DNA from: a virus
Direction: 5' to 3' (one strand)
Length of the DNA: 37,309 bases
IMG/VR virus record: IMGVR_UViG_3300030329_002910
Coordinates: 1 to 37,309 of that record
A model generated the notes under the pieces. The model was not told the origin of the DNA. It worked only from the letters and a program-made list of their open reading frames with translations, and ran no database searches. Below, one piece after another: positions 3,681-37,309 of this stretch. A program made the position numbers and the translations under genes. The number at the start of each line of letters is the position of its first letter. The stretch's first letter is position 1.

Positions 3681-3884
3681 ATGAAAGTGAAATTAAAAAA
3701 TAAAGACAATCCAGTACCTAATAATTTGGTATTTAGAAATGCTGGACATTGCCTTACTTTAATAAATGAAATAAATTCAGGCAAGCAAGTAGAGGTAGAT
3801 AGAATACCTAAACCTGCTGCCGAATATGTAGAAGAAGTTAAAACAAACAAAAAGAAGGGTGGTAACCCTAAAGGAGATAAATAA
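3681..3884 (+). CDS. 67-aa hypothetical tail-module protein
   Basis: A small basic protein preceded by AAGGAG and overlapping the tail-tube start by one base (TAATG). It has an N-terminal 'MKVKLKNKDNPVPNN' strand-like segment and a lysine-rich tail ('TNKKKGGNPKGDK'). It sits between the terminator and tube genes, so co-expression with the tail is clear. The opening resembles the start of the chaperone gene at 4926 ('MEIKLKNKKAF'), but this is too short to infer homology. The function is unknown. Confidence 0.6.
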   Translation: MKVKLKNKDNPVPNNLVFRNAGHCLTLINEINSGKQVEVDRIPKPAAEYVEEVKTNKKKGGNPKGDK

Positions 3885-4900
3885 TGGCTATTAATGCAAA
3901 TGCTTATTCACCAAAGCAGTTTTCGTTCTTAATTGCCCAGCAGGATGATTGGGGTACTATCAATCCAGATTCTGGTGCTAGTCCTGATAATGCTTGGCTT
4001 GCAGTAGATGTCGACTCTATAGGGAGTCCATCTTTAAACTTAAATCAAGTTCTTGACCCAAGAAATGGAAGTAGAATTTTACAAGCTACTGATTTTTATC
4101 AAGAGAAGCTAGTAAGAGTAATTGAAATGTCTGTGTCAGGAACAGCTACAACAGAGGTTTTAGACCTTTTGTTGGGCAACATTACACAAGGAGATACAGT
4201 TCCTTACTTAATAACATCTGCTGGTGCAGTTCAAAATATGACATCTGCAACTGCAAACCAAACTGCAAATCAACTATTGTCAGTTGCTTACAAAAGCCCT
4301 GCTAGTGGACACGCTATAGGCTTAAAAGATGTTTTTTGTACCGCAATATCATTTAATGGAGATGCTGGGACAGAGGGCGGTAGAGTTAAGTTTTCAGCTA
4401 CATTTAAAACTGGCTCTGCACCTATTATGAATCAAGCAGACGTAGCTATCGATACAGTAATAAGTTCTAATAATTATTATATGAGTTCTTGGGATGCTGA
4501 CGATAGAATTATTGCAGGACACTCTAATGTTTTAGTAAATTCATTTACTTTAAATGTAGAAAATGATGTTGTTTTTGCAGGGCCTTGTTCAACAGGCTAC
4601 GAAAGTGCTTCAAGAGTTGGCGAAGTTTCTGCAACTGCTGACTTTAACATTAAGTATGATGACAATACAGATGTTATGTTTGAAAACTTTACAGACCAAG
4701 CTACAGGCAGTTCGGAAGGAGCTACATTAATGGCTACTGATGCCACACCTTCTGATGGCGAATTTGAATTTAAATTTGCTGGCTCTGTCATAACAAATGT
4801 TGCTTTTAGCGAAGGAGATATGATGGGATTAGACGTATCGGTTAAAGCAGTAGGCTCAGGTATAGGTTCAAGTACAGCATTGTTTGAAATTGCTTGCTAA
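3884..4900 (+). CDS. major tail tube protein
   Basis: This 338-aa, Gly/Ser/Thr/Asp-rich, mostly beta protein precedes the frameshifted chaperone pair and tape measure, the standard position of the tail tube gene. Features seen are 'YSPKQFSFLIAQQDDWGTI' at the N-terminus, internal paired strands, and 'SFTLNVENDVVFAGPCSTGYESASRVGEVSATADFNIKYDD', a pattern common in phage tail tube proteins, where an 'R.g...v.a.f...y.d' block pairs with a 'l.v.n' strand. It should polymerise as hexameric rings around the tape measure. The ribosome site AAAGGAG lies about eight bases upstream. Confidence 0.7.
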   Translation: MAINANAYSPKQFSFLIAQQDDWGTINPDSGASPDNAWLAVDVDSIGSPSLNLNQVLDPRNGSRILQATDFYQEKLVRVIEMSVSGTATTEVLDLLLGNITQGDTVPYLITSAGAVQNMTSATANQTANQLLSVAYKSPASGHAIGLKDVFCTAISFNGDAGTEGGRVKFSATFKTGSAPIMNQADVAIDTVISSNNYYMSSWDADDRIIAGHSNVLVNSFTLNVENDVVFAGPCSTGYESASRVGEVSATADFNIKYDDNTDVMFENFTDQATGSSEGATLMATDATPSDGEFEFKFAGSVITNVAFSEGDMMGLDVSVKAVGSGIGSSTALFEIAC

Positions 4901-5204: not shown

Positions 5205-5644
5205 AACTAAATATACTTTTACCTACTTGCGGGGGTTGCAGATACCATAGCTTCCCTTATTCAGCTGAAATTCCAGTCTTAATTGACGGAATTAGAGAAA
5301 AACGCAGATTCGACAATATGGATGATGTTTGGGCAGTTGCAGATTTAATTATAGAAGAAACTACCCAAGTAAACGAAGAGCAGGACAAGTCCTTTGATAT
5401 TGCCGAATCGTTAGTAGCACAGATACCTTTTTTTGCGTGTCCTAATAAATTTATGGACATTACTTTAAATGGAGACATAGAAAGGTATACATATTGTGAG
5501 AAATTTAATATACCTCCTTATGAGGGGTCTTATGATAATCAGCCAGCCAAGTGGGTAAGGCGTGCATTTGCAATCAGAACAGCATTTGCTAAAAAAGAAA
5601 AAAAGGAAATAAATGGCACAAGAAACAATTCTAGTAAATTTTAG
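4926..5644 (+). CDS. tail assembly chaperone G-T fusion made by -1 ribosomal frameshift
   Basis: The second frame has no stop from 5180 to the TAG at 5642-5644. It reads on from the slip site as 'REALQVELNILLPTCGGCRYH' and reaches the ORF containing 'MDDVWAVADLIIEETTQ'. Slippage at GGGAAAC would give a fusion of about 239 aa: 87 residues of the G-like protein plus 152 from the -1 frame. In lambda-like tails the T domain binds the tube protein and the G domain binds the tape measure. No well-placed independent start serves the downstream frame's first 44 codons, which supports frameshifting. The end overlaps the tape measure start by 32 bases. Confidence 0.75.
5180..5237 (+). promoter_or_regulatory. 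-1 programmed frameshift site: slippery heptamer plus stem-loop
   Basis: The heptamer GGGAAAC (5180-5186) is X-XXY-YYZ in the gene's own frame. After a 4-base spacer, 5191-5204 can pair with 5223-5237 to form a stem of about 14 pairs with one bulged C and two G-U pairs, around an 18-base loop. The zero-frame TAG lies at the stem's upper end. Both elements of a classic -1 signal are therefore present. Confidence 0.8.
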
Positions 5645-7835
5645 AGCAAGAGGCGATAAAAAACTTATAAGGTCAATGTATGCTTTAGCTCAGGCACAGG
5701 CAAGGTTAGAAAAAAATGCTAAAACTGCTGCTGTATCTCAAACTTTTCTAGGAACAGCTTTTAGCAGAAATACTAAAGGTGCAAGTGCTTTTTCTCTTTC
5801 CTTATCTACACTTCGTTCTAAATTACTTTTAGTTAGTTTTGGTCTAGGACTTGTAGCCAATAGTCTTACAAGGGCAATAGGAGCTATGGCAAAAAGCTCT
5901 CAACAGCTTAACCAAATGGAAACAGCATTTGATAACCTTGTAACTGGAGCTGAATCATCTGCAATAGCTTTAGATAAGCTTAGTGCGGCAACTAACGGAA
6001 CAGTATCTAATTTCGATTTATTACAACAAGCTAATAATGCTATGATTCTTGGGGTTTCTAGAAATTCAGATGAAATGGCTGAAATGTTTGATATGGCACA
6101 AAGACTTGGTAAAGCTCTTGGAGTAGACACTAAGCGTTCTATAGAATCTCTCATTACTGGTATTGGTCGTCAGTCAAGACTTATGCTTGATAATATTGGT
6201 ATTATTGTTAAAGCAGATGAGGCTTATGAAGCTTATGCTAAAGAAATAGGCAAGACTGCCGATAATCTAACAGATGCAGAGAAAAAACAAGCTTTTTTCA
6301 ATGCTACAATGGATTCTGCTAGAGAAAAACTAAAAAGTATTGGAGAAGAAACTGAAGAAGGGGATGCTTTTCAAAGATTAGGTGCAAGTGCTGAAAATTT
6401 TTCATCGACTGTAGGCGAAGCTCTTGCTCCCGCCTTAGAATCTATGGCTGAAGTTCTAGCAGATATATTAGATGGAGGGGTTGCTTTTCTTCAATGGTTA
6501 GATTTAGTAGATACCGCTTTAGAAAGATCTATTGGAAAAATAAACGAGGAACAAGTAGCTACTAGGTTGCTAAAAAATGAGCTAAACCAAACCACACAAG
6601 GAACAAAAGACTATCTTGATGTAAAAGATAAAATAATAGCAAGATTTCCAAATTATTTCAAAAATATAGAAGATGAAAAGATTGGGATGGATTTGCTTAA
6701 TAAGGCTCTTGATGAACATAATGAATTTTTAATGCAAAAAATTAGAATTGAAGTTGCAAATGAAGTTTTATCGACTAAGAAAAAACAACTTGTTGCGGCA
6801 ATCGCAGCATTGACCGATAGAGAAATAAAGCAAGCTGAGTTGCAAGTCAAATTACAAAATATCATTAGGTCTCAGTTGGAAGCTGTATCGGTAACTTTAG
6901 GTCACACTACAGAGGAGCAAAAGAATTTCGTAAGCACTATGATGGAGGCAGTAAAATCTGTTGGATTTTTAAAGGTGGGATTTAAAAGCACTAAGGAAGA
7001 ATATACGTCTTTATCAGAAGCTATAATGGAAAGAGGTTTAGTTTTTGGGCTAGATAAAGCAATTAGAGACAACTTATTTAAATGGGCTGAATGGAGAAAA
7101 TCAAGCGGCATAACGCAAGTCGAAACAAGAGAAGATGCTGAAGAAACTATAGCTAAACTGCAAGAGCAGGTTGAAACACAGCAAAGCTTTGTAGACTCTA
7201 TATTGGATGCTTTGGGTTTGACTGGGGATAAATTTAAAAAATCAACAGAAGGTATAAAAGAGGGTATTGATACGATAGATAAGATGTCTGATAGTGTAAA
7301 GCAAGCTGAAAGAGATATAAGCTCTCTTACGCAAGCTACAACAAGTTTTTGGCTAAGCTCACAACAAGGAGCTAGGACTTGGGAAAGATTTGGAGATGTT
7401 ATCATTCAGCAAATGGAGAGAATTGTATCAACATTTTTAGCTAATTGGGCAACATTTAAATTAATGAGTATGATATTTAAAACAGATTTTACGAACTTTG
7501 CAACAGCCCCTTCATTGTTTGGTTTTACTTTTGGGGGATCAAACAATTCAGGCTCAGCAGATGTTCCTGAATTGCATAGCGGAGGAATGATTCAAAGCTA
7601 TCATCAAGGAGGCAATGTCCCTATTATGGCTCAAGAAGGTGAGTTTGTGATGAGAAGAAGTGCTGTAGAGTCTATAGGTCTTGAGAACTTAAATAGAATG
7701 AATAGGACTGGTCAATCAGGGGGAGTTAATATTAATTTTTCAGGCAATGTACTATCAGGAGATTTTATAGAAAACGAAGCCATACCTAAAATAAAAGATG
7801 CAGTACGAAGGGGTGCTGACATAGGAATAAGTTAA
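5613..7835 (+). CDS. tail tape measure protein
   Basis: A 740-aa protein directly after the chaperone pair. It is long and helical, has a hydrophobic segment near residues 65-90 ('LLLVSFGLGLVANSLTRAIGAMA'), coiled-coil stretches from about 380 to 560, and a C-terminus with 'SGGMIQSYHQGGNVPIMAQEGEFVMRRSAV', a Gly-rich block found at the end of many tape measure proteins. It sets tail length and is later ejected to help DNA entry. By the usual rule of about 0.15 nm per residue the tail would be near 110 nm. The AAGGAAATAAATG start overlaps the chaperone frame; the stop overlaps the next ATG. Confidence 0.88.
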   Translation: MAQETILVNFRARGDKKLIRSMYALAQAQARLEKNAKTAAVSQTFLGTAFSRNTKGASAFSLSLSTLRSKLLLVSFGLGLVANSLTRAIGAMAKSSQQLNQMETAFDNLVTGAESSAIALDKLSAATNGTVSNFDLLQQANNAMILGVSRNSDEMAEMFDMAQRLGKALGVDTKRSIESLITGIGRQSRLMLDNIGIIVKADEAYEAYAKEIGKTADNLTDAEKKQAFFNATMDSAREKLKSIGEETEEGDAFQRLGASAENFSSTVGEALAPALESMAEVLADILDGGVAFLQWLDLVDTALERSIGKINEEQVATRLLKNELNQTTQGTKDYLDVKDKIIARFPNYFKNIEDEKIGMDLLNKALDEHNEFLMQKIRIEVANEVLSTKKKQLVAAIAALTDREIKQAELQVKLQNIIRSQLEAVSVTLGHTTEEQKNFVSTMMEAVKSVGFLKVGFKSTKEEYTSLSEAIMERGLVFGLDKAIRDNLFKWAEWRKSSGITQVETREDAEETIAKLQEQVETQQSFVDSILDALGLTGDKFKKSTEGIKEGIDTIDKMSDSVKQAERDISSLTQATTSFWLSSQQGARTWERFGDVIIQQMERIVSTFLANWATFKLMSMIFKTDFTNFATAPSLFGFTFGGSNNSGSADVPELHSGGMIQSYHQGGNVPIMAQEGEFVMRRSAVESIGLENLNRMNRTGQSGGVNINFSGNVLSGDFIENEAIPKIKDAVRRGADIGIS

Positions 7836-10800
7836 TGCTTAATTTACCACAGAAGTTTAAAAATGGTTTTTCAGGAAAAGCAATTAATGTATATCCTATA
7901 GTAGTTATTAATGCAGGTGGTAATATTATTCGGCTTGCTCAAATTAAAGGAATGTTTGACGGAGAGTATTACGAAGATAGGAATCTTATCGTATCAAGCA
8001 TTAATGAAAAGATAGACATAGCTGATAAGAAATTCCAAATCAATCAAGTAACTATAGATGTAAGCAACTACGTTATAGAGCAAATACGTTTTTCTGAAAA
8101 GTTTAAAGGGTTTTCGTTTACTAATGCAGAGGTAGAGATTTATTATGCGAATGAAGGTTGCGATACCTTAGAAGATTGCTTACAGATATTTAAAGGGTTT
8201 GTAAAAGACTATAGCGGAAACCAAGAAAAAGTATCCTTTAGCGTTGAAGACCATAGTCAATATACTTTAGACAATAAGACATTTCCAAAAAACAAAACAT
8301 ACGATCCTGCATCTGAGACAGTAGATGCTAGTAAAAATGTTCATTTTCCAGTAGTCTATGGACACGTTGATAAATCGCCTATAATATTTACAAGAAATAA
8401 TCCAGCATCATTAACATCTTATATGTTTCCTGATGCAGTATTTACTCAAGATGATGAAAGAAAAATAGACATACTAGGATTTGCTAATAATATTGAGCCT
8501 TTATTAATATTTAGAGACGATATGTATTTAGTAGTGCCAATTAATTTTTTAGATTTACCTGATGATTTTTACATAAATGGATATGATTACTCTAATTACA
8601 ATACAAGTAAAACGGGCGAGCCTCAATATGAAATATCTGAAGCAAATGATAGAATTATTTTAGAAAAGAAATTGTCAGAAATGGCTTATACATCAGGATT
8701 GCCTTTAAATATTCAAGGGAGAGACCAATTTCAAATAGAAGCAAGAAGAGAAGTTACAGGAGTATCGTCTTCATCTTCTGACGTGGCTTTAGAGTATGGA
8801 GATATGGCAGATATTCAGTATTTAGGTAAAAATGATGGCTATGATGTCTTAGGAACAAACCAACAATTTCTTTTTCCAGAGCCTCAAGGAGACCAAAGGC
8901 TTTTAGGGTTTCATAGAGATTTTATTTTAAAGGGAGCAAATTACGGATATAAAAGAGATTTTGTAGGCTTTTTTAGGGAAAGAACTCTTTACAAAGGATT
9001 TGCTTTATGGGAATTGACTAAAATATTAGACGAGTCTGAGGGGGATGCGTTTGGTAATAGGGCATTTGATGCAGTATATTTTCCAGATGCTATAGATGTT
9101 TTACAGTTTTTAAATATTTCTAATGAGTACAATGGAGCTGAATGGATTACATTAAATGCGGAAATTTTGTCTGGAAGCTATCCAGTAGCCTATTCAACTG
9201 ACCAGTATTTTGGAACAAATTTTGTAGCTCAAGGTTTAATTAATTTTATAGAAAATGAATCAAGTGCATTCCAGCCTAACTTTCATAGTGATTTAGCTGG
9301 AATAAGGATTACAAGCACAAATCCTGATTTAGAAGATATCGAATTAATGATAGATGATGATGCTAGTGAATATTTTAATCCAAATGTAACTGCTTGGATT
9401 ACTGAAATTAATGATTCTGGCGAATATGTCTACAATGATGATGGCTTGGTATGTCTTAGAAAAGTTTTATGGGGTACAAGAATTTACGGAGAAACAGCAT
9501 TTGCTTCTGGGCTACCCGAAAGAAGCTGGGTATTTGGACTTTATCCAGTTTTAGGTCAATGTGTCCCAAAGGGCAATTCTGAAATAGAATTTATTTCTAG
9601 CAGCACAGCGTTTACCCCATTTCCACACTTCCCTAAAGTAGAGGTTTATAGCGTAAATCCAGTTATAGATACTTTATATTCTTATAAAAATCCATACCTA
9701 TCAAATCCTTCTGAGCCTTTAAATTATGAAGGCTTTAACAGTCTTTATGAGTCTTTAATTAAGTGGGATTACGGAAGCATTGATAATAATAGATTAAAAT
9801 TTATAAAACATAATGCACAAGGCTGGAATCAAGGCGAGAGAATGATTGTTACAGAAGAATTCGATTTATTTGATATGGATAATGAAGCACCATACAGCTC
9901 TGCGGAAATAATAAGTCTTGGTATAGATGCGACGATAGGCGGAAACTGGTGTCCCATAAGTAACAATTTAGGGCAAATGCAGGCAACAAAGTTAGATTTA
10001 ACTTTTAATTCAATATCGGGAAATGATGTTATTTTAGGAAGCGTATATAGTAAGTTAAAAGGAAAGGTAACTGTTGATTTTTATAGAAACACAAGCGTTG
10101 ACGATAATAATCCCGTAAATTATCCCCACTTTTATGTGGAATGCGATGCTTTTAAGCCTAAAGATAGTAAAGAAGGCGATGATTTAATTCAATATAAAGA
10201 TATATTAACTCATACTGAAGGATATAATGGGGGTATACCTACCGATGAACTTGTTTATAGTTTTTCTACTGGATACCCTGATACAGAGCCTGAAAATAGT
10301 TCCTATGATTTTTCAACATACACTAATAACATAAAGTTTCCAGATGAGAATAATCCTAGTGTATTTTTTACAGATTGCAATAAATATGAAGATGAAGATA
10401 CAGACCAATGGAGAGAAAATATAAACTCTGTAAATAATGTTGTATTAACATATACTATAGGACATCCAAATCAAGAGCAAAATGACGACTATATAGTTAA
10501 TGGATTCTTTAAAACAAACATAAGCAACTTTGAGCTACATCAAAGATTTATAATTGGTAATACGCCTCAACAAAAATATTTTGCAGACGTAAAAGGAAGG
10601 ATAGACCAGTTTGACGGAAGATATACAGGGCAAGAAAGCTTAAATGAAGAAAACATTAATGATGATTGGCTAATCACGAAGCCTTCAGATATATTAATGC
10701 ACGTAATGGAAAAAGAATTTGGCTATTTTAATGTTGATGCTTTTGACCAAAACTCTGTTATAGAGGCTAGAGATAATCACGAAGGTTGGCGTTTTGACTT

Positions 10801-11785
10801 TGTTGTATCTAAGGAAACTAAAGCTAAAGAATTTTTATCTGATTTTTGCAAAGGCACTAAATTAATTCCAAGATTTAGACACGATGGAACATTTGGTTTT
10901 ATTAATATATTTCAAAATTATGGAGAGTCAGACGTAATTATAAATTCAGCAGATGTTTCTTCTTTTGAATATTCTAAAACCCCTCTATCAGATGTTAAGC
11001 TAATGGTCAAGGTTGATTATAATTATGATACAGGACTTGATCAGTATACTGAGTCTACTAATTTCAATAATGATGGTGCAGTTCCAGTCAATTACGATGT
11101 TCTTCAAAACCTATATAATATAAATTCTTTAGAAGATGCTTATTTAAAAGTAGAATCTAAATATATTAGAGATGAATCTACTGCTATAAAGCTTAGAAAT
11201 TATTTATTAGAATGGAATAAAAACCAGCACAATGAGATAAGTTGCACGTTACCCCCTAACTATATGCACTTAGAGTGCGGGGATGTAGTTGAGTTTGATT
11301 CACTTATTGAAGATATGACAATTTTTGGAGAAGATTACACTCAAAGCTATTTTGTCGGAGGAGAAGACGTTGATAGTGGTGGGCAAGAAATTTTACCTTA
11401 TTTTATAATTACTGATATTAAAAAGTCTCAAAAAAATGTAAAAGTTAATTTAATTCAACTTCACAAAATTAATCCAATCCACGTTAGAGACAATTCTCCA
11501 GACTACGCAACTGGTAATTTCTATATTCCTCCCCAACTAGAAGAAGATGAGGAAGAGGTTGAGGAAACGCAAGAGATAGTTTTAGGTGACATCAATTTTG
11601 ATGGAAGCGTAGATGTCTTAGATATAGTTGCTATTGTTGATATGGTTGTAGGAAGCTCAGAATTTAACGATAATCAATTTTTAGCAGCCGACGTAAATCA
11701 AGATAATTATGTAGATATTTTAGATGTGGTACAAATTGTACAATCGGTAGTTGAGGGAACAGACTTAGGTGCAATAGAGGTATAA
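7835..11785 (+). CDS. tail hub / tip protein with C-terminal dockerin type I
   Basis: A 1316-aa protein after the tape measure, where siphophages encode the distal tail, hub and tip. The N-terminus is beta-rich. A region around residues 950-1060 ('DILMHVMEKEFGYF...DFCKGTKLIPRFRHDGTFGF') looks like the hub domain of gpJ-type tail proteins. A strongly acidic linker (about 1232-1250, 'EEDEEEVEETQE') leads to residues 1251-1311, which contain two Ca2+-binding F-hand loops, 'GDINFDGSVDVLD' and 'ADVNQDNYVDILD', each followed by a hydrophobic helix: a full dockerin type I. The domain would be exposed at the tail tip and may bind a cohesin-like or other surface partner. It could have been acquired from a host. 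Confidence 0.75.
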   Translation: MLNLPQKFKNGFSGKAINVYPIVVINAGGNIIRLAQIKGMFDGEYYEDRNLIVSSINEKIDIADKKFQINQVTIDVSNYVIEQIRFSEKFKGFSFTNAEVEIYYANEGCDTLEDCLQIFKGFVKDYSGNQEKVSFSVEDHSQYTLDNKTFPKNKTYDPASETVDASKNVHFPVVYGHVDKSPIIFTRNNPASLTSYMFPDAVFTQDDERKIDILGFANNIEPLLIFRDDMYLVVPINFLDLPDDFYINGYDYSNYNTSKTGEPQYEISEANDRIILEKKLSEMAYTSGLPLNIQGRDQFQIEARREVTGVSSSSSDVALEYGDMADIQYLGKNDGYDVLGTNQQFLFPEPQGDQRLLGFHRDFILKGANYGYKRDFVGFFRERTLYKGFALWELTKILDESEGDAFGNRAFDAVYFPDAIDVLQFLNISNEYNGAEWITLNAEILSGSYPVAYSTDQYFGTNFVAQGLINFIENESSAFQPNFHSDLAGIRITSTNPDLEDIELMIDDDASEYFNPNVTAWITEINDSGEYVYNDDGLVCLRKVLWGTRIYGETAFASGLPERSWVFGLYPVLGQCVPKGNSEIEFISSSTAFTPFPHFPKVEVYSVNPVIDTLYSYKNPYLSNPSEPLNYEGFNSLYESLIKWDYGSIDNNRLKFIKHNAQGWNQGERMIVTEEFDLFDMDNEAPYSSAEIISLGIDATIGGNWCPISNNLGQMQATKLDLTFNSISGNDVILGSVYSKLKGKVTVDFYRNTSVDDNNPVNYPHFYVECDAFKPKDSKEGDDLIQYKDILTHTEGYNGGIPTDELVYSFSTGYPDTEPENSSYDFSTYTNNIKFPDENNPSVFFTDCNKYEDEDTDQWRENINSVNNVVLTYTIGHPNQEQNDDYIVNGFFKTNISNFELHQRFIIGNTPQQKYFADVKGRIDQFDGRYTGQESLNEENINDDWLITKPSDILMHVMEKEFGYFNVDAFDQNSVIEARDNHEGWRFDFVVSKETKAKEFLSDFCKGTKLIPRFRHDGTFGFINIFQNYGESDVIINSADVSSFEYSKTPLSDVKLMVKVDYNYDTGLDQYTESTNFNNDGAVPVNYDVLQNLYNINSLEDAYLKVESKYIRDESTAIKLRNYLLEWNKNQHNEISCTLPPNYMHLECGDVVEFDSLIEDMTIFGEDYTQSYFVGGEDVDSGGQEILPYFIITDIKKSQKNVKVNLIQLHKINPIHVRDNSPDYATGNFYIPPQLEEDEEEVEETQEIVLGDINFDGSVDVLDIVAIVDMVVGSSEFNDNQFLAADVNQDNYVDILDVVQIVQSVVEGTDLGAIEV

Positions 11786-11786
11786 T

Positions 11787-12392
11787 ATGACAAGCGGAAC
11801 AATAAGTTATTACGATGGAAATATTTATTTAGAAAGCGATGGAAATCCGTATGCTATAGACATAACATATAAAGGCAAAATAAAAGGAGAATCAATGTTG
11901 CCTGAAGGGTTTATTATACAAGAAAAGAATAATAGGATATTAATATTAAGAATATCTGATAAAAAATTCCCTAAACTTCTATTTTCCTACAATGGTAGTT
12001 TTAAAATATTGAAAGCCGATCTTTATTCAGACACATCAAAAGTAACCGCATCATTGAATGCAAATATAAATTATTACAATAAGATGTCAGATAATTGGAA
12101 TCAACTTAATAGTAAGTGGCAAGAATACTCAGACTCTTATTTTTATGGAGATGTGGCAACTAAAAAGCGAACAGATATAGTTACCAATAACTTAAAAAGC
12201 GTTTCAGGAAACTTAGTTACTAAAGATGGCGAAGAGTATTATGGAGACGTTCATTTTCATTCAGAAGGCTATTTTATGACTGGAGGGGTGCATAATAAAG
12301 ATTCAGTTAGGCTTTATCATAAGAATAAAAAAAGAATTGTTAAAAGAAAAGTTATAAGAGCAAAACAAATTAATGGAGGAAGAAATGGCTAA
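11787..12392 (+). CDS. hypothetical tail-tip protein
   Basis: A 201-aa protein starting one base after the hub stop and overlapping the next gene by eight bases. It begins with short beta strands ('GTISYYDGNIYLESDGNPYAI'). Near residues 155-170 it has 'GEEYYGDVHFHSEGYFMTGG', and it ends in a basic tail ('HKNKKRIVKRKVIRAKQ'). The 'GdvH.h..gymtG..H' block recurs in proteins near phage tail tips. Placement implies a tip or baseplate component; no family is claimed. Confidence 0.55.
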   Translation: MTSGTISYYDGNIYLESDGNPYAIDITYKGKIKGESMLPEGFIIQEKNNRILILRISDKKFPKLLFSYNGSFKILKADLYSDTSKVTASLNANINYYNKMSDNWNQLNSKWQEYSDSYFYGDVATKKRTDIVTNNLKSVSGNLVTKDGEEYYGDVHFHSEGYFMTGGVHNKDSVRLYHKNKKRIVKRKVIRAKQINGGRNG

Positions 12393-13422
12393 TCAAAGTA
12401 TAGGTAGCCCTCGTTTTTATTTAGATTTTACGCAACTCGCTAGATTAAAAGGGTTTTTTTATTGGGAAGATGGTGTGCAAAACTCATTCGGATTTAATGA
12501 TAGTGAGCCTTTAGAGTCTAATAATGATGTATGGAATTTTGATTTATATAAAACAAACCAGTATAATCTAAATAATGATGATTACAAGCTTTGGCACTTT
12601 AACTTTTACCCTCAAGATAATATCGATAAATCGTGGTCTAGGCTAGCCAGCAATTCTAACTGGGCAGGTATAATAAACCATAACGTAGCAAATTTAACAG
12701 ATGAAGCACCTTTATTACTTTTTTATAATGATACGCCTATACAATTTATAAGTGGTTTTCCTGATGATGTAGCTAATTCTAGCCCTATTGAAAAAAACGG
12801 ATATAGTATTGTTGAGTTTACAGAAAACCCTCAAGATGATCTTTATAAGGTATCTATAGGGTTAGATACAAATGTTGAAGGTGCAGTAAATATTGGAACA
12901 ATGTCTTTTGGAAGATATTACGATATGCCAAACTCTCCAGATTTAAGTATAAAAAAATCTGTAGAATACGATGGTGTAAACATACAAAGAACTTTAGGTG
13001 GAGCAGATTATGTTCAAGTAAATAACTCTGGCACACCTAACTGGATAAGTGGTGAGCCTTTTGCTTTAGTTAATCCAAATGAATCCTCTAGTAGATTAGG
13101 TAGGCACGGAAGAAGGTCTTGGGAATTAAAGTTCTCATACATTGGGAACGATAATTTATTTTACGATACATCAAGACCGAATGTATTTGGAGATTTAATA
13201 AATGATGAGGGCAGCGACTACAATGAGCTATCTGCAGGCTCTGAGATTCAACAGATATTTGACTTAACATTAGGAGGAGCTTTAAGTTTTATTTTCTGCC
13301 CAGACCCATCAGCTACTAATCCAGAGTTTGCTCAATGCCGATTAGACCAAAGTTCTTTATCAGCTACACAAGTAGCATATCAGACTTGGAATGTGTCTAT
13401 GAATATAATCGAGGTTTGGTAA
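12385..13422 (+). CDS. hypothetical tail protein, last gene of the + strand structural operon
   Basis: A 345-aa protein starting at the ATG at 12385, which has GGAGGA at ideal distance; an in-frame ATG at 12373 lies before that site and is unlikely. It is acidic and rich in Asn, Asp, Ser and aromatics, with 'SPRFYLDFTQLARLKGFFYW' at the start and 'SWELKFSYIGNDNLFYD' near residue 240. The C-terminal 'LSFIFCPDPSATNPEFAQCRLDQ...YQTWNVSMNIIEVW' looks like a terminal beta domain. As the last tail gene it may contribute to the tip or host contact. Its stop directly abuts the stop of the opposing gene at 13423. Confidence 0.6.
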   Translation: MANQSIGSPRFYLDFTQLARLKGFFYWEDGVQNSFGFNDSEPLESNNDVWNFDLYKTNQYNLNNDDYKLWHFNFYPQDNIDKSWSRLASNSNWAGIINHNVANLTDEAPLLLFYNDTPIQFISGFPDDVANSSPIEKNGYSIVEFTENPQDDLYKVSIGLDTNVEGAVNIGTMSFGRYYDMPNSPDLSIKKSVEYDGVNIQRTLGGADYVQVNNSGTPNWISGEPFALVNPNESSSRLGRHGRRSWELKFSYIGNDNLFYDTSRPNVFGDLINDEGSDYNELSAGSEIQQIFDLTLGGALSFIFCPDPSATNPEFAQCRLDQSSLSATQVAYQTWNVSMNIIEVW

Positions 13423-17976: not shown

Positions 17977-18339
17977 TTAATATAGCCATATAACAACTAT
18001 AAACACAAGAAAAAAATTATTATTGCAAATTATATACATTACAGCATATATTACTAATCTGTTATCGGTTTGGTTCGATACTTTTGGCGATAACGATTTA
18101 TAATTGTCTACCAAAAGGGGTTTCCTCAAAGACAAAGAACGAGGCGAAGAAACACAAGTTCGAGGATATACTTTCAAGAGTGAATAAATAGGTTTCCGTA
18201 GGTCATAACTTGAATTATTATCTATATGCACGAAAGCGACTCTGAAGGTTGTAATTTCTAAAGGCATAGGTTTCCTGCTCCTATATATAGGGGTAGGGAG
18301 GCTTCTATGCTTTTGCTCTCTAAAGGTTGTATTAATCAC
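17977..18339 (-). CDS. doubtful 120-aa ORF in the regulator-replication gap
   Basis: A GTG overlapping the stop of the sigma-like gene, with AGAGG six bases upstream, opens 120 stop-free codons, which is notable in DNA this AT-rich. The translation looks unusual: three 'RKP' repeats, many Ser and Pro, then a hydrophobic C-terminus ('LVFIVVIWLY'). The stretch also holds degenerate 78-base repeats and an inverted repeat, so it may instead be a regulatory region with an accidental frame. Base composition differs from its neighbours. Coding is a minority view. Confidence 0.3.
   Translation of the reverse strand: MINTTFREQKHRSLPTPIYRSRKPMPLEITTFRVAFVHIDNNSSYDLRKPIYSLLKVYPRTCVSSPRSLSLRKPLLVDNYKSLSPKVSNQTDNRLVIYAVMYIICNNNFFLVFIVVIWLY
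18061..18094. repeat. 7-bp inverted repeat (possible operator)
   Basis: GTTATCG at 18061-18067 and CGATAAC at 18088-18094 are perfect complements separated by 20 bases. They lie about 115-145 bases before the start at 17947 of the replication operon. They could form a hairpin or a split operator. Confidence 0.4.
18181..18336. repeat. two degenerate 78-bp tandem units
   Basis: ATAGGTTTCC recurs at 18189 and 18267, and AAGGTTGTA at 18245 and 18323, both exactly 78 bases apart; a shared TCTAT-TGC block lies between them. A third GGTTTCC lies at 18119-18125. The units are otherwise diverged. A repeated binding site or a decayed duplication could explain them. Confidence 0.5.
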
Positions 18340-19250
18340 TTAATACCTCTTTTTAATCTCTCTGTATATGAAATTTCAATATTGTTCGATAGGCATTCAT
18401 AACAAATATAAATATGTCTTCCTAAAGATTTAATAATCATATCAATGTTATTAATTTTTAGTCCGTATCTTTTATATAAATAACTTAAATTGCCCAATAA
18501 TATTGAATTTTTAATTTTAGCAATTTCGCTGTCATTATAATAAGGATAAACTATTTTATTTTTGAATAAAGCAGTATCTACAAGATAGTCGTTAAGTTTT
18601 TCTAAACGATGGCTAGCGTTTAGTTTGCAATGATAAACCTTGTCAAACGTATCTCTATATGTGCGTAATTTATCGGATCTGCACCTATGCCTCATTCTTC
18701 TTAATGCTTTGTTTTTTATCTGCCTAACTCTTTCTCTAGATAAGCTAAGTTTATTTGATATTTCCTCTAGAGATAATCCTCCTGTCTTTCCGTTTCCAGA
18801 GTAACCATCAATTCCAAAATACATCTTTAAAACATCTTTTTCTTTTATTTTTAATGTGTCTAATTTTTTATTCAACTCGATATTGAGAAAATCGTTGTTT
18901 ATAGTCTTATCAATTTCAGTATCAGATTCTAGCTGCAAAACTTCTTCTGAGTCTAGAGAAACAATATTTTCAATCGGAATATCTTTTATAATAGGCTTAT
19001 TCTTGCCTTTAGTTTTATCCAATACTTCCTTATATTGCTCAAAAAGTGTCCATTCATCTGTTTCTAGCAAATCGCATATTACCTTTCTATGATGAGGGTC
19101 TTTAGGGATTCTCCTAAGGTTTGCATACTCTATTATTTGACCATAGCTAATCCCTGCCTTTTTTGAAAATTCAACTATTGATTTATAGCCTTTTTTATTT
19201 AAAGCATTAATAAATCCTGCATTTTTAAATCTTATTTCTGTTCTTATCAT
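18336..19250 (-). CDS. Xre-type HTH fused to sigma-70 region 4: transcription regulator
   Basis: The ATG at 19250 has GGAGAG eight bases upstream (an in-frame TTG at 19277 is rejected), giving 304 aa. Residues 17-70 ('GYKSIVEFSKKAGISYGQIIEYANLRR...LLETDEWTLF') form an Xre/Cro-like helix-turn-helix. Residues 130-192 are a very clear sigma-70 region 4: 'LKMYFGIDG', then 'LSLEEISNKLSLSRERVRQIKNKALRRMRH', closely like the RpoD -35-binding helix. Regions 2 and 3 are absent, so it cannot melt a -10 alone. It probably redirects host RNA polymerase or replaces region 4 at phage promoters. It lies in the early operon just before the replication genes. The C-terminal 100 residues are unrecognised. Confidence 0.72.
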   Translation of the reverse strand: MIRTEIRFKNAGFINALNKKGYKSIVEFSKKAGISYGQIIEYANLRRIPKDPHHRKVICDLLETDEWTLFEQYKEVLDKTKGKNKPIIKDIPIENIVSLDSEEVLQLESDTEIDKTINNDFLNIELNKKLDTLKIKEKDVLKMYFGIDGYSGNGKTGGLSLEEISNKLSLSRERVRQIKNKALRRMRHRCRSDKLRTYRDTFDKVYHCKLNASHRLEKLNDYLVDTALFKNKIVYPYYNDSEIAKIKNSILLGNLSYLYKRYGLKINNIDMIIKSLGRHIYICYECLSNNIEISYTERLKRGIK

Positions 19251-19263
19251 TTTATAACTCTCC

Positions 19264-19710
19264 TCATTTATAAACAATCTCCTTAAAATGCTTCATTGGA
19301 ATATGTACTGCTGGCTGAATGTCTTGCCAATCTCTAGTGTTTTTAGTTCTTGCTCCAAACCTAACACAATAAGGCTCATTTAAGATCTCCATTTCTAACT
19401 CACAATAAACGTCTTTATCAGTATAGCGACAAGCCAATAATGTAGGTAAGCCTGTAGACATCCTTAACTCTTTTGCTTTCATCCATTTATTAAGATTAAT
19501 CATTGAATCTGGAAAGTCTGTTGTTTTAAAGTTTCTTTTTTTAATTTCTAAAAAACCTCTCATTCGACCAGCTTTAACAATAGCATAGTCAAACCTATAA
19601 TCAAGAGCCAATTTATAAAGTTGGCAATTCCATTTTCTTTCAAGGCTTTCCTTAAACTCTTTTTCTTTAAGTTCACAAACTTTTATATCATTTTGAATTT
19701 TAGTTCTCAT
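19264..19710 (-). CDS. PD-(D/E)XK nuclease-like protein
   Basis: A 148-aa protein with an N-terminal helix, then 'LDYRFDYAIVKAGRMRGFLEIKKRNF', in which D41 and E55-x-K57 fit the D...(D/E)xK nuclease core, followed by 'INLNKWMKAKELRMSTGLPTLLACRYTD', a helix-strand pair common in this fold. It may degrade host DNA or process recombination ends. Its start overlaps the preceding small lipoprotein-like gene (ATGA), and its stop lies 13 bases before the regulator. Confidence 0.6.
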   Translation of the reverse strand: MRTKIQNDIKVCELKEKEFKESLERKWNCQLYKLALDYRFDYAIVKAGRMRGFLEIKKRNFKTTDFPDSMINLNKWMKAKELRMSTGLPTLLACRYTDKDVYCELEMEILNEPYCVRFGARTKNTRDWQDIQPAVHIPMKHFKEIVYK

Positions 19711-34788: not shown

Positions 34789-35571
34789 ATGGCATTAACA
34801 GATAAAACAATAGCAAGCACCTATGGAGATATACTACAAGTTGATAATAGTGGTAGTGGTAGAACTGCTAATGGTACTGTAGTTAAAGATGGTTTAGGTC
34901 AATCAACTGCTTTAACACTAGGTGGAGATAAAATTAAAATTACACCTTCATCTGATAGCACTACAGCAGTAACAATAGAAACATCAGGTGGTACTGATTT
35001 ATTAGTAGTAGATTCAACAAATAGTGCAGTTAAAGTGGGTACTACACAAACTTATGCTAATACTCAATATTTATCATTCAAGTGTATAGATTTAAATGTT
35101 TCGGCTGGAACTCACTTAGCTATTCCATTAGCTGGTCATAGTCCAGCAGGTGTAGGAGGAATGCCTGCGGGGGCTTGGACTCTTGGAACTTCTACAGACC
35201 CTTCTGCACCAGCTTTCTCAAATAATGGAGACGATATACTTCAATGTATTCATTATGTAGATACAAACATAACTGTAGACTCTGTACAGATATTAGCTAC
35301 GGGTGATACTGCTACTGGGGATACTATAAACTTTCATTTATGCAGTTTAGCTACATCGGACACAACTACGGTTAATAGCTGGAGCAGCACAACAGTAGTA
35401 GCTGACTGCTCAGATGTATCTACAGCAGGCAGAGAACAATTTTATAGAATAGCCTTAGACATACAATCTGCAAATGTAGATGCGGGTAATTATTTAGTAT
35501 TAACAATAGAATCAGACGGAACTAATAGTGATTATTCTGTCAACGGATTAGTAAGGTATCATTTAAGATAA
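34789..35571 (+). CDS. fibre-like virion protein (allele 2, complete)
   Basis: A 260-aa protein with AGGAGATT before the ATG. Residues 1-95 ('LTDKTIASTYGDILQVDNSGSG...TTAVTIETSGGTDLLVVDSTNSAVKVGTTQTYANTQ') form a repetitive beta anchor common in marine phage fibres. Residues 100-260 form a distinct beta domain with 'ITVDSVQILATGD', 'INFHLCSLA' and 'YSVNGLVRYHL'. The truncated gene at 1-573 has nearly the same anchor end and a different C-terminal domain, so this is one of two alleles. Host attachment is likely. Confidence 0.72.
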   Translation: MALTDKTIASTYGDILQVDNSGSGRTANGTVVKDGLGQSTALTLGGDKIKITPSSDSTTAVTIETSGGTDLLVVDSTNSAVKVGTTQTYANTQYLSFKCIDLNVSAGTHLAIPLAGHSPAGVGGMPAGAWTLGTSTDPSAPAFSNNGDDILQCIHYVDTNITVDSVQILATGDTATGDTINFHLCSLATSDTTTVNSWSSTTVVADCSDVSTAGREQFYRIALDIQSANVDAGNYLVLTIESDGTNSDYSVNGLVRYHLR

Positions 35572-35583
35572 AGGAGAAGAATT

Positions 35584-37128
35584 ATGCCATATAAAGGTCA
35601 AACATCAGCCCCTATTCCTTCTACGGGAAAATCATCTAGGGAAAAACCAGTTTTAGAGAAAACGAAATCAGTTAGCTATAGTGCCACGCAGTCAGACCAG
35701 ATATTTGCTGTGTCTGCAAGCTCTAGCTCATCTACAACAGAAAGTATGCCTTCTAGGGTAGAGATTATGAATGATGGAAAAGTTCCATTAATGCTTATGG
35801 CTGGATATGAGACATATACAGACGATAGAACAGATGGGGTTACAGAATATTTACATACAATGCTTATGCCGGGAGAGACATATTATCCTCCTGTAAGAGG
35901 GCTTATACAGACTGATGCCGATACTGTTATAGTAGATGGGACTGTGGTAAGCAATTCAGCTCCTAACTCTAATGAGTATGTTGATAGTGGGGCAGATATT
36001 GATAGTGCAACTGCAGCAGGAGTTGTGGGAAGCGACACTAATAGTTTAGTTTATTTAGAGCCTTATACTTCGGCAGCAAACTGTACTGCAAATTTATTTA
36101 GAGTTGGTGATTTAATCAGAGTTAATAATGAAGTTATGAAAGTTACTAGCATAGGTACAAAAGCTGCACTTAACAGCAATACTCTTGTAGTTGAAAGAGG
36201 TATGTATGGAACAAGTGCAGTAGATACTCACGCTGATGATGCAGCTGTAAGATTGCCATTCTTTAATGCTTATACAAATGATTTGACAAAGAGAACAACT
36301 ACAGTTGATGGAAAATTTAAAGCATTTAACTTTTTTGGATTAGGTAGATCTGAGACACAAGTACAAGGAATTACTCCCGGTTCTGTCGCTATCAAGTTTT
36401 ATGAAGCAGGTTATCAAGAATTTGGTCTTAGCGGAATAACTAGCAGTACAAATTCAGGTCTCTCTGCCAGCACTACATACTATCTATCTATAAGTATTGA
36501 TGGAGCTACTACTGATAAAATTACATTTACTACAGATTCTAGTAATTTAAATTTTGGGGGCAAAAATGGAGTGATAGCTAAACTTCAATCAGCAATAGAT
36601 GCTTTATACTATAATCCTTCAAAAAATGGATTCCAAAAAGGAGCAACGGTATCGATAGTAGATGGAGATATTAGGGTTACCTCAAATCAACACTCATCCA
36701 CATCGGCAATATCTATAACAACAAATACTGATGGAACTGCTGGAACAGATGAGTTGTTTGATACTTCTAATATTATTGGAAGAATACCAGCTACTATTAA
36801 GGCGGCTGTTGCAGCAAGATTACCTGATGACGTTACATACGATGAGGTTACTTATGCAGAAATACCTAATGAAGGTTCTTTTGTTTACGATGATGGCAAT
36901 GGAAACTTGTTTGGGGCAGCTGAAGGAACTATTAATTATGAAACAGGAGCTATAGACTTTAAAAATGCTCCTTCTGAAGCAGAGTTTGTAGTTAGTTGTA
37001 TGCACTCTGGTGCTTTTTCTGGTAAATTAAATGAAGCAGAGACAGACAGAATTAACTCTTTAATTGCAGTTTATGCTAATACTACAAGTCAAAAAATGAA
37101 TGGCTCTGTAAAAGTGAGGACATATTAA
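35584..37128 (+). CDS. large surface or decoration-like virion protein (allele 2)
   Basis: A 514-aa partner of the protein at 583-2148, with AAGGAGAAG before the ATG. The N-terminal 60 residues are Ser-rich and differ completely ('YKGQTSAPIPSTGKSSREK...'). From 'PNSNEYVDSGADID' on, the two share blocks such as 'LFRVGDLIRVNNEVMKVTSIG', 'THADDAAVRLPFFN', 'GYQEFGLSGITSSTNSGL', 'AVAARLPDDVTYDEVTYAE' and 'INYETGAI'. Same position and order (fibre, this gene, basic peptide, adaptor) confirm they are alleles or paralogues. Structural; exact role unknown. Confidence 0.7.
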   Translation: MPYKGQTSAPIPSTGKSSREKPVLEKTKSVSYSATQSDQIFAVSASSSSSTTESMPSRVEIMNDGKVPLMLMAGYETYTDDRTDGVTEYLHTMLMPGETYYPPVRGLIQTDADTVIVDGTVVSNSAPNSNEYVDSGADIDSATAAGVVGSDTNSLVYLEPYTSAANCTANLFRVGDLIRVNNEVMKVTSIGTKAALNSNTLVVERGMYGTSAVDTHADDAAVRLPFFNAYTNDLTKRTTTVDGKFKAFNFFGLGRSETQVQGITPGSVAIKFYEAGYQEFGLSGITSSTNSGLSASTTYYLSISIDGATTDKITFTTDSSNLNFGGKNGVIAKLQSAIDALYYNPSKNGFQKGATVSIVDGDIRVTSNQHSSTSAISITTNTDGTAGTDELFDTSNIIGRIPATIKAAVAARLPDDVTYDEVTYAEIPNEGSFVYDDGNGNLFGAAEGTINYETGAIDFKNAPSEAEFVVSCMHSGAFSGKLNEAETDRINSLIAVYANTTSQKMNGSVKVRTY

Positions 37129-37187
37129 TGCCTTATACTAAGAAAAAGAAAAAAGTTAAAAAAACTAAAAAGAAGAAGAGGAGATAA
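37128..37187 (+). CDS. 19-aa basic peptide
   Basis: The ATG shares one base with the preceding TAA. The frame 'MPYTKKKKKVKKTKKKKRR' is almost all Lys and Arg and ends three bases before the adaptor ATG, in the place held by the 31-aa basic peptide at 2152-2247. Its size leaves doubt, but the conserved position supports it. Its DNA also supplies the adaptor's AGGAGAT ribosome site. Confidence 0.4.
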   Translation: MPYTKKKKKVKKTKKKKRR

Positions 37188-37190
37188 TAA

Positions 37191-37309
37191 ATGGCTACAG
37201 CACCAACATATATAACGCACGCAGAATTAAAGAGAATATTTCCTCAATTAGATGAGTTTGATCAAAAGACTCCTATTTATGGATGGAAAGAAGTAACAAG
37301 TAATAAGTA
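37191..37309 (+). CDS. head-tail adaptor, 3' truncated by the window edge (allele 2)
   Basis: The first 39 codons of an adaptor that reads 'MATAPTYITHAELKRIFPQL...', differing from the gene at 2251 by two residues near position 11-12. From 37233 to the end the DNA is identical to 2293-2369. The gene is cut by the window edge and very probably continues as 2370-3222. Confidence 0.75.
   Translation, partial: MATAPTYITHAELKRIFPQLDEFDQKTPIYGWKEVTSNK
37233..37309 (+). repeat. 77-bp exact terminal repeat of 2293-2369
   Basis: The last 77 bases equal 2293-2369 without mismatch, and base 37232 (G versus A) breaks the match. The match stops exactly at the window's end. A terminal exact overlap of 77 is what a k=77 graph assembler leaves at a circular or branched join. 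Confidence 0.85.

Follow-up and report, generated by a model that had tools for sequence, protein, structure and literature searches.

The tail hub protein encoded in the window, that is, in the entire 37,309-base record of an uncultured virus analyzed here (33% GC), ends in what profile searches and structural modeling identify as a genuine type I dockerin, comprising residues 1247–1316. Hub-terminal dockerins of this kind occur in most members of a large, uncultured group of siphophage-like and apparently marine phages (a habitat suggested by the nature of such contig collections), and the trait is probably ancestral there. The adjoining gene, ds1, encodes a protein whose N-terminal domain is predicted to adopt a cohesin-like fold. 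We lean slightly towards the view that the dockerin forms a Ca2+-dependent plug-and-socket joint that holds ds1 at the tail tip, rather than serving as an adhesin for host cohesins. The features on which the analysis is based are collected in Table 1.

Table 1. Tail module of the window and functional parts of the hub and ds1 proteins
Feature	Position	Strand	Basis
Tail tube gene	3884–4900	+	Weak PF18906 match
Tape measure gene	5613–7835	+	phrog_3779
Tail hub/tail-tip protein, 1316 aa	7835–11785	+	ORF; first gene past the tape measure gene
gpJ-like hub core, residues 945–1215	10667–11479	+	BLAST/HMM family; AlphaFold2 and VIA-align
Acidic flexible linker, ~residues 1233–1246	11531–11572	+	Sequence; low pLDDT
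Type I dockerin module, residues 1247–1316	11573–11782	+	PF00404; AlphaFold2 model compared with 1ohz_B and 2ccl_B
Ca2+ loop 1, DINFDGSVDVLD, residues 1252–1263	11588–11623	+	Sequence; ligand statistics in relatives
Ca2+ loop 2, DVNQDNYVDILD, residues 1286–1297	11690–11725	+	Sequence; ligand statistics in relatives
ds1, 201 aa, encoded directly behind the hub, candidate dockerin partner	11787–12392	+	Adjacency; fusions
ds1 N-terminal domain, ~residues 1–95, predicted cohesin-like β-sandwich	11787–12071	+	AlphaFold2, VIA-align, Foldseek
ds1 C-terminal H-x-H...M-T-G-x-x-H motif region, YYGDVHFHSEGYFMTGGVH	12237–12293	+	Sequence; alignment of relatives
ds2, 349 aa, third gene of the conserved hub–ds1–ds2 block	12373–13422	+	Gene of this family behind the hub in 157 loci

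The Dockerin_1 profile (PF00404; curated cut-off 22.9 bits) matches hub residues 1250–1301 (11582–11737) with 27.2 bits and an E-value of 4.6e-6. In a six-frame search of the record the same profile scored 32.1 bits (E-value 5.2e-9), and this was the sole dockerin in the record. Moreover, a phmmer search against PDB sequences returned the dockerins 8x39, 8ajy, 4uyp and 2ccl. Both 12-residue Ca2+ loops are intact, with Asp or Asn at every one of positions 1, 3, 5, 9 and 12, and the acidic linker EEDEEEVEETQE lies directly before the module. We modeled hub residues 890–1316 with AlphaFold2 (45 sequences, mean pLDDT 84.6). In the model, pLDDT is ~90 for the dockerin part and drops below 50 in the linker (model residues 344–353). 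The modeled dockerin consists of three helices (1261–1271, 1279–1285 and 1295–1307), with short strands close to both ends (1247–1249 and 1313–1315), and it fits the cellulosomal dockerins 1ohz_B at 0.7 Å over 56 residues and 2ccl_B at 1.2 Å over 62 residues; comparison with 8x39_A gave a Z-score of 12.6. Judged by its loops and predicted fold, the hub dockerin binds Ca2+. A sequence-only reading of the same DNA had placed a complete type I dockerin with two F-hand loops at the end of the hub, behind an acidic linker, and all of this is upheld. Its start at 11530 needs adjusting, as it includes the linker, while the folded part spans ~11573–11782. The other EF-hand-like family that it had envisaged as an alternative was not found: the module belongs to the dockerin family and has dockerin helices. 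The profile match, the structure and the conservation across the family also rule out a chance resemblance.

The domain preceding the dockerin in the AlphaFold2 model has lambda gpJ among its best structural matches (8iyk_F, Z-score 17.7), and other tail-tip hubs match it too. The position of the gene directly after the tape measure gene likewise fits a gpJ-like hub. The Phage-tail_3 profile (PF13550) matches the hub of the window weakly, below the cut-off; among hub relatives it matches in 5 of 24, reaching an E-value of 1.4e-7. By its modeled structure, the 1316-residue protein is a gpJ-like tail hub, as the sequence-only reading had labeled it. Since the hub core is gpJ-like and located within the tail module, a contaminating bacterial gene can be ruled out as the source of the dockerin. 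Neither the hub nor ds1 of the window matched a PHROGs or NCBIfam family, and no relative of the hub, ds1 or ds2 was found among cultured phages (INPHARED), where the hub core matches only lambda-like gpJ with E-values of 0.09–0.4.

Two other features of the record are noted here. Sigma-70 region 4 is recognizable (E-value 7e-14) in the protein encoded at 18336–19277 on the minus strand, perhaps a phage sigma-like factor. The record begins (1–2369) and ends (34996–37309) with the same two-gene cassette in diverged copies. The cassette proteins encoded at 583–2148 and 35584–37128 are 43% identical, and the border DNA is closer still: 90% identity between 1–72 and 34996–35067, and 93% between 2221–2369 and 37161–37309, with the final 77 bases exact. 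Duplication of a tail-gene cassette could account for the two copies, as could allele exchange or the joining of two variants at the record ends.

How typical the dockerin is of such hubs was assessed in two ways. When viral contigs were searched with just the dockerin, 52 loci were obtained, and in 43 of them the dockerin is carried by a hub homolog. Three scans with hub-core alignments, run without dockerin selection, yielded 204 hub ORFs that form 143 clusters at 90% identity. A dockerin is present behind the hub core in 109 of the 134 clusters with a complete 3′ end, a frequency that may be an overestimate because the core alignments were seeded with dockerin-bearing hubs. Among the 25 clusters without a dockerin behind the core, some carry it elsewhere or in decayed form: it precedes the core in L100, its frame is broken by a stop codon in L231, the frame is shifted in L186, and in other cases the dockerin belongs to the adjoining gene. 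In the hub family the dockerin mostly lies 0–2 residues from the protein end, and the spacer between core and dockerin ranges from 12 to more than 700 residues. PF00404 was detected in 48 of 50 long phage records (over the cut-off in 46), nearly always once per record, and the dockerin is spread over the entire hub tree; the dockerin of one locus (L001) is identical in sequence to that of the window. The Ca2+ ligands, whose loss in all relatives would have spoken against the sequence-only reading, are complete in loop 1 of 68, in loop 2 of 72 and in both loops of 62 of the 78 relatives scored. Furthermore, the residues at positions 10–11 of either repeat are V/I-L in most cases, even among hubs that have diverged greatly.

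Dockerins also occur on viral-contig proteins unrelated to the hub (L013, L016, L017, L018, L021, L024, L028, L036 and L049). Some of these are N-terminal or internal, for example at residues 16–74 of 241 in L017. A ds1-like gene is absent from these nine loci.

The genomic neighborhood points to a link between the dockerin and ds1. The ds1 gene directly follows the hub in 164 of 176 loci and is one gene further in six. The distance from the end of the dockerin to the start of ds1 has a median of 15.5 nt and is below 67 nt in 95% of cases (152 loci). In five loci (L105, L108, L110, L111 and L125) the dockerin is absent from the hub and instead forms the end of a small gene located between hub and ds1. 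The products of these small genes are ~190–225 aa long and have an N-terminal domain of no recognized kind; on the hub tree, the transfer of the dockerin to a separate gene needs at least two changes. In two other loci, which belong to separate clades of the hub tree, the hub, the dockerin and ds1 are fused in a single ORF: L124 (3642–6563) and L112 (3078–7940), the latter with a second dockerin loop that looks decayed when read from the sequence. Sequencing errors at the stop codon are a possible cause of these fusions. That the L124 fusion still contains a dockerin suggests some role for this module besides tethering. In about eight lineages ds1 is retained as a separate gene while the dockerin is missing or decayed, hence ds1 is not strictly dependent on the dockerin. 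As ds1 is nearly universal beside the hub, a correlation between its presence or absence and that of the dockerin cannot be measured. Distances among dockerins and among ds1 proteins did not co-vary beyond what the hub core accounts for (partial rho 0.03, within the null range), a result that does not decide the matter, given the shortness of the dockerin and the small sample.

A likeness of the ds1 consensus to the cohesin core was noted before the ds1 structure was predicted. The AlphaFold2 model of ds1 (74 sequences, pLDDT 84) reaches pLDDT values of 90–97 in residues 1–90. A Foldseek search with this model returned the cohesins 4ums and 1g1k as the two best among 350,542 PDB chains, with E-values of 2–3e-3 and probabilities of 0.98–0.99 but low TM-scores. 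VIA-align of the N-terminal domain ranked the cohesins 2vo8, 2w1n and 2jh2 highest, then 6kgf, at borderline Z-scores of 8.1–8.3. Cohesins, which are nine-stranded β-sandwiches, make up 32 of the best 50 VIA-align entries, and CBM2 chitin-binding domains come close behind them with a Z-score of 7.9. At the sequence level, a phage-encoded cohesin could not be identified. The cohesin profile PF00963, which the sequence-only reading would have had us look for among the phage's own proteins, gave nothing over the cut-off in 54 distinct phage records, where it produced one sub-threshold match, and it is not listed for any of the 74 ds1 members. The ds1 profile found no match in PDB, and hhalign of ds1 against six type I cohesins gave probabilities of ~0. 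We therefore describe the modeled N-terminal domain as having, on borderline evidence, a cohesin-like fold and do not call it a cohesin, because the structural Z-scores are borderline and sequence profiles see nothing. In the C-terminal part of ds1, an HxH...MTG..H motif recurs in several relatives and is a possible metal site. In BFVD, A0A516LCZ7 has the same sequence as ds1 (100% identity), meaning that a public protein record exists for this virus or a near-identical one.

A mechanism for the proposed joint can be outlined. Hubs of the gpJ type are trimers, as is known for gpJ itself, and each subunit would expose one tethered dockerin. Folded by Ca2+, the dockerin would be the plug for the cohesin-like N-terminal domain of ds1. 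The ds1 protein, coming from the adjoining gene, would plug on through this domain and become tethered at the tail tip, to which its C-terminal part with the HxH...MTG..H motif would thereby be added. Cellulosomal enzymes are tethered in a comparable way, through a linker and a C-terminal dockerin. We infer that the dockerin binds ds1, that binding needs Ca2+, and that ds1 or its cargo acts in host or receptor contact. The more specific proposal, in which ds1 is a highly diverged minimal cohesin that makes up, with the hub dockerin, a phage-encoded Ca2+-dependent tail-tip joint sometimes replaced by covalent fusion, falls a little short of an even chance in our estimation. The sequence-only reading had offered two roles for the dockerin. 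Holding a virion protein with a cohesin-like fold has gained support from ds1, which is adjacent, co-conserved, twice fused and predicted to have such a fold; the idea of attachment to a host or particle that bears cohesins has no positive evidence in its favor.

A receptor-binding role for the tail-tip dockerin, main or auxiliary, through a cohesin exposed by the host cell or by a particle, would nevertheless be in keeping with some observations. The receptor-binding part of lambda gpJ is likewise C-terminal, bacterial cohesins are found on cell surfaces, and in most hub relatives the dockerin occupies the extreme C-terminus. We consider this role unlikely, however, since the recognition positions 10–11 are conserved as mostly V/I-L, unlike fast-changing receptor-binding tips, five relatives carry the dockerin on the next gene and not on the hub, and the hub core was not found in species genomes by two pattern scans. 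Moreover, host adhesion leaves the fusion of the dockerin with ds1 unexplained. The same fusions and gene order bear on whether the dockerin docks some other virion protein, such as ds2 or the tail proteins encoded at 583–2148 and 35584–37128. These are conserved or duplicated virion-like genes, but among the genes examined it is ds1 that adjoins the dockerin in almost all arrangements and that is twice fused to it, so that another partner seems very improbable.

Alternatively, the dockerin might merely stabilize the hub end with Ca2+ or trimerize it and have no cohesin-like partner, ds1 being an unrelated tail-tip protein with a common β-sandwich fold. The short strands close to its two termini might let the dockerin close on itself, ds1 persists without a dockerin, and ds1 lacks sequence similarity to cohesins, all of which would agree with a structural cap. 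On the other hand, a cap would not be expected behind a spacer so variable in length, some relatives have the module on another gene adjoining ds1 and not on the hub, and dockerins are known as partner-binding modules. Taken together, we find a purely structural role improbable.

Among the hits listed from the literature covered, which included few subscription papers, no dockerin or cohesin was tied to phage tail assembly. Gene 40 of phage VvAW1 has dockerin-like BLAST hits (PMC3558961), and a tailspike with a stretch resembling a cellulosomal module has been described (PMC5967307); neither is a hub-terminal dockerin. The conservation of such a dockerin over a whole uncultured phage group would extend the module to virion assembly. 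If the proposed joint is real, the tail tip has a Ca2+-dependent, swappable connection, and the phages hold a new natural set of small plug-and-socket pairs. The hub and ds1 gene families thereby receive a first interpretation as well.

Cohesin–dockerin pairs are known from cellulosomes and from some surface or secreted enzyme complexes. In Clostridium thermocellum, the cellulosomal type I dockerin (1ohz, 2ccl) likewise has two F-hand Ca2+ loops and three helices, and it is likewise located at the C-terminus of a large protein, separated from the rest by a flexible linker, an arrangement shared by many cellulosomal enzymes. It differs in its carrier, here a phage tail hub in a phage without a PF00963 cohesin, and at loop positions 10–11, which are Ser-Thr in C. 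thermocellum and hydrophobic V/I-L in the hub dockerin. A cellulosome requires a cohesin-bearing scaffoldin and several dockerin-bearing enzymes, whereas the record has neither a PF00963 cohesin nor a second dockerin; by analogy, the phage joint would work like a cellulosome without being a member of that class. The non-cellulosomal cohesins of Clostridium perfringens (2vo8, 2w1n and 2jh2) resemble the modeled ds1 N-terminal domain, with Z-scores of 8.2–8.3 and deviations of ~3.1–3.2 Å over 98–99 residues, but they are ~135 residues long compared with ~95 in the ds1 domain and have no detectable sequence similarity to it. Lambda gpJ (8iyk, 8k35) shares with the hub described here both the hub-core fold and a variable C-terminal tip extension. 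It carries no dockerin, whereas the present hub ends in a docking module.
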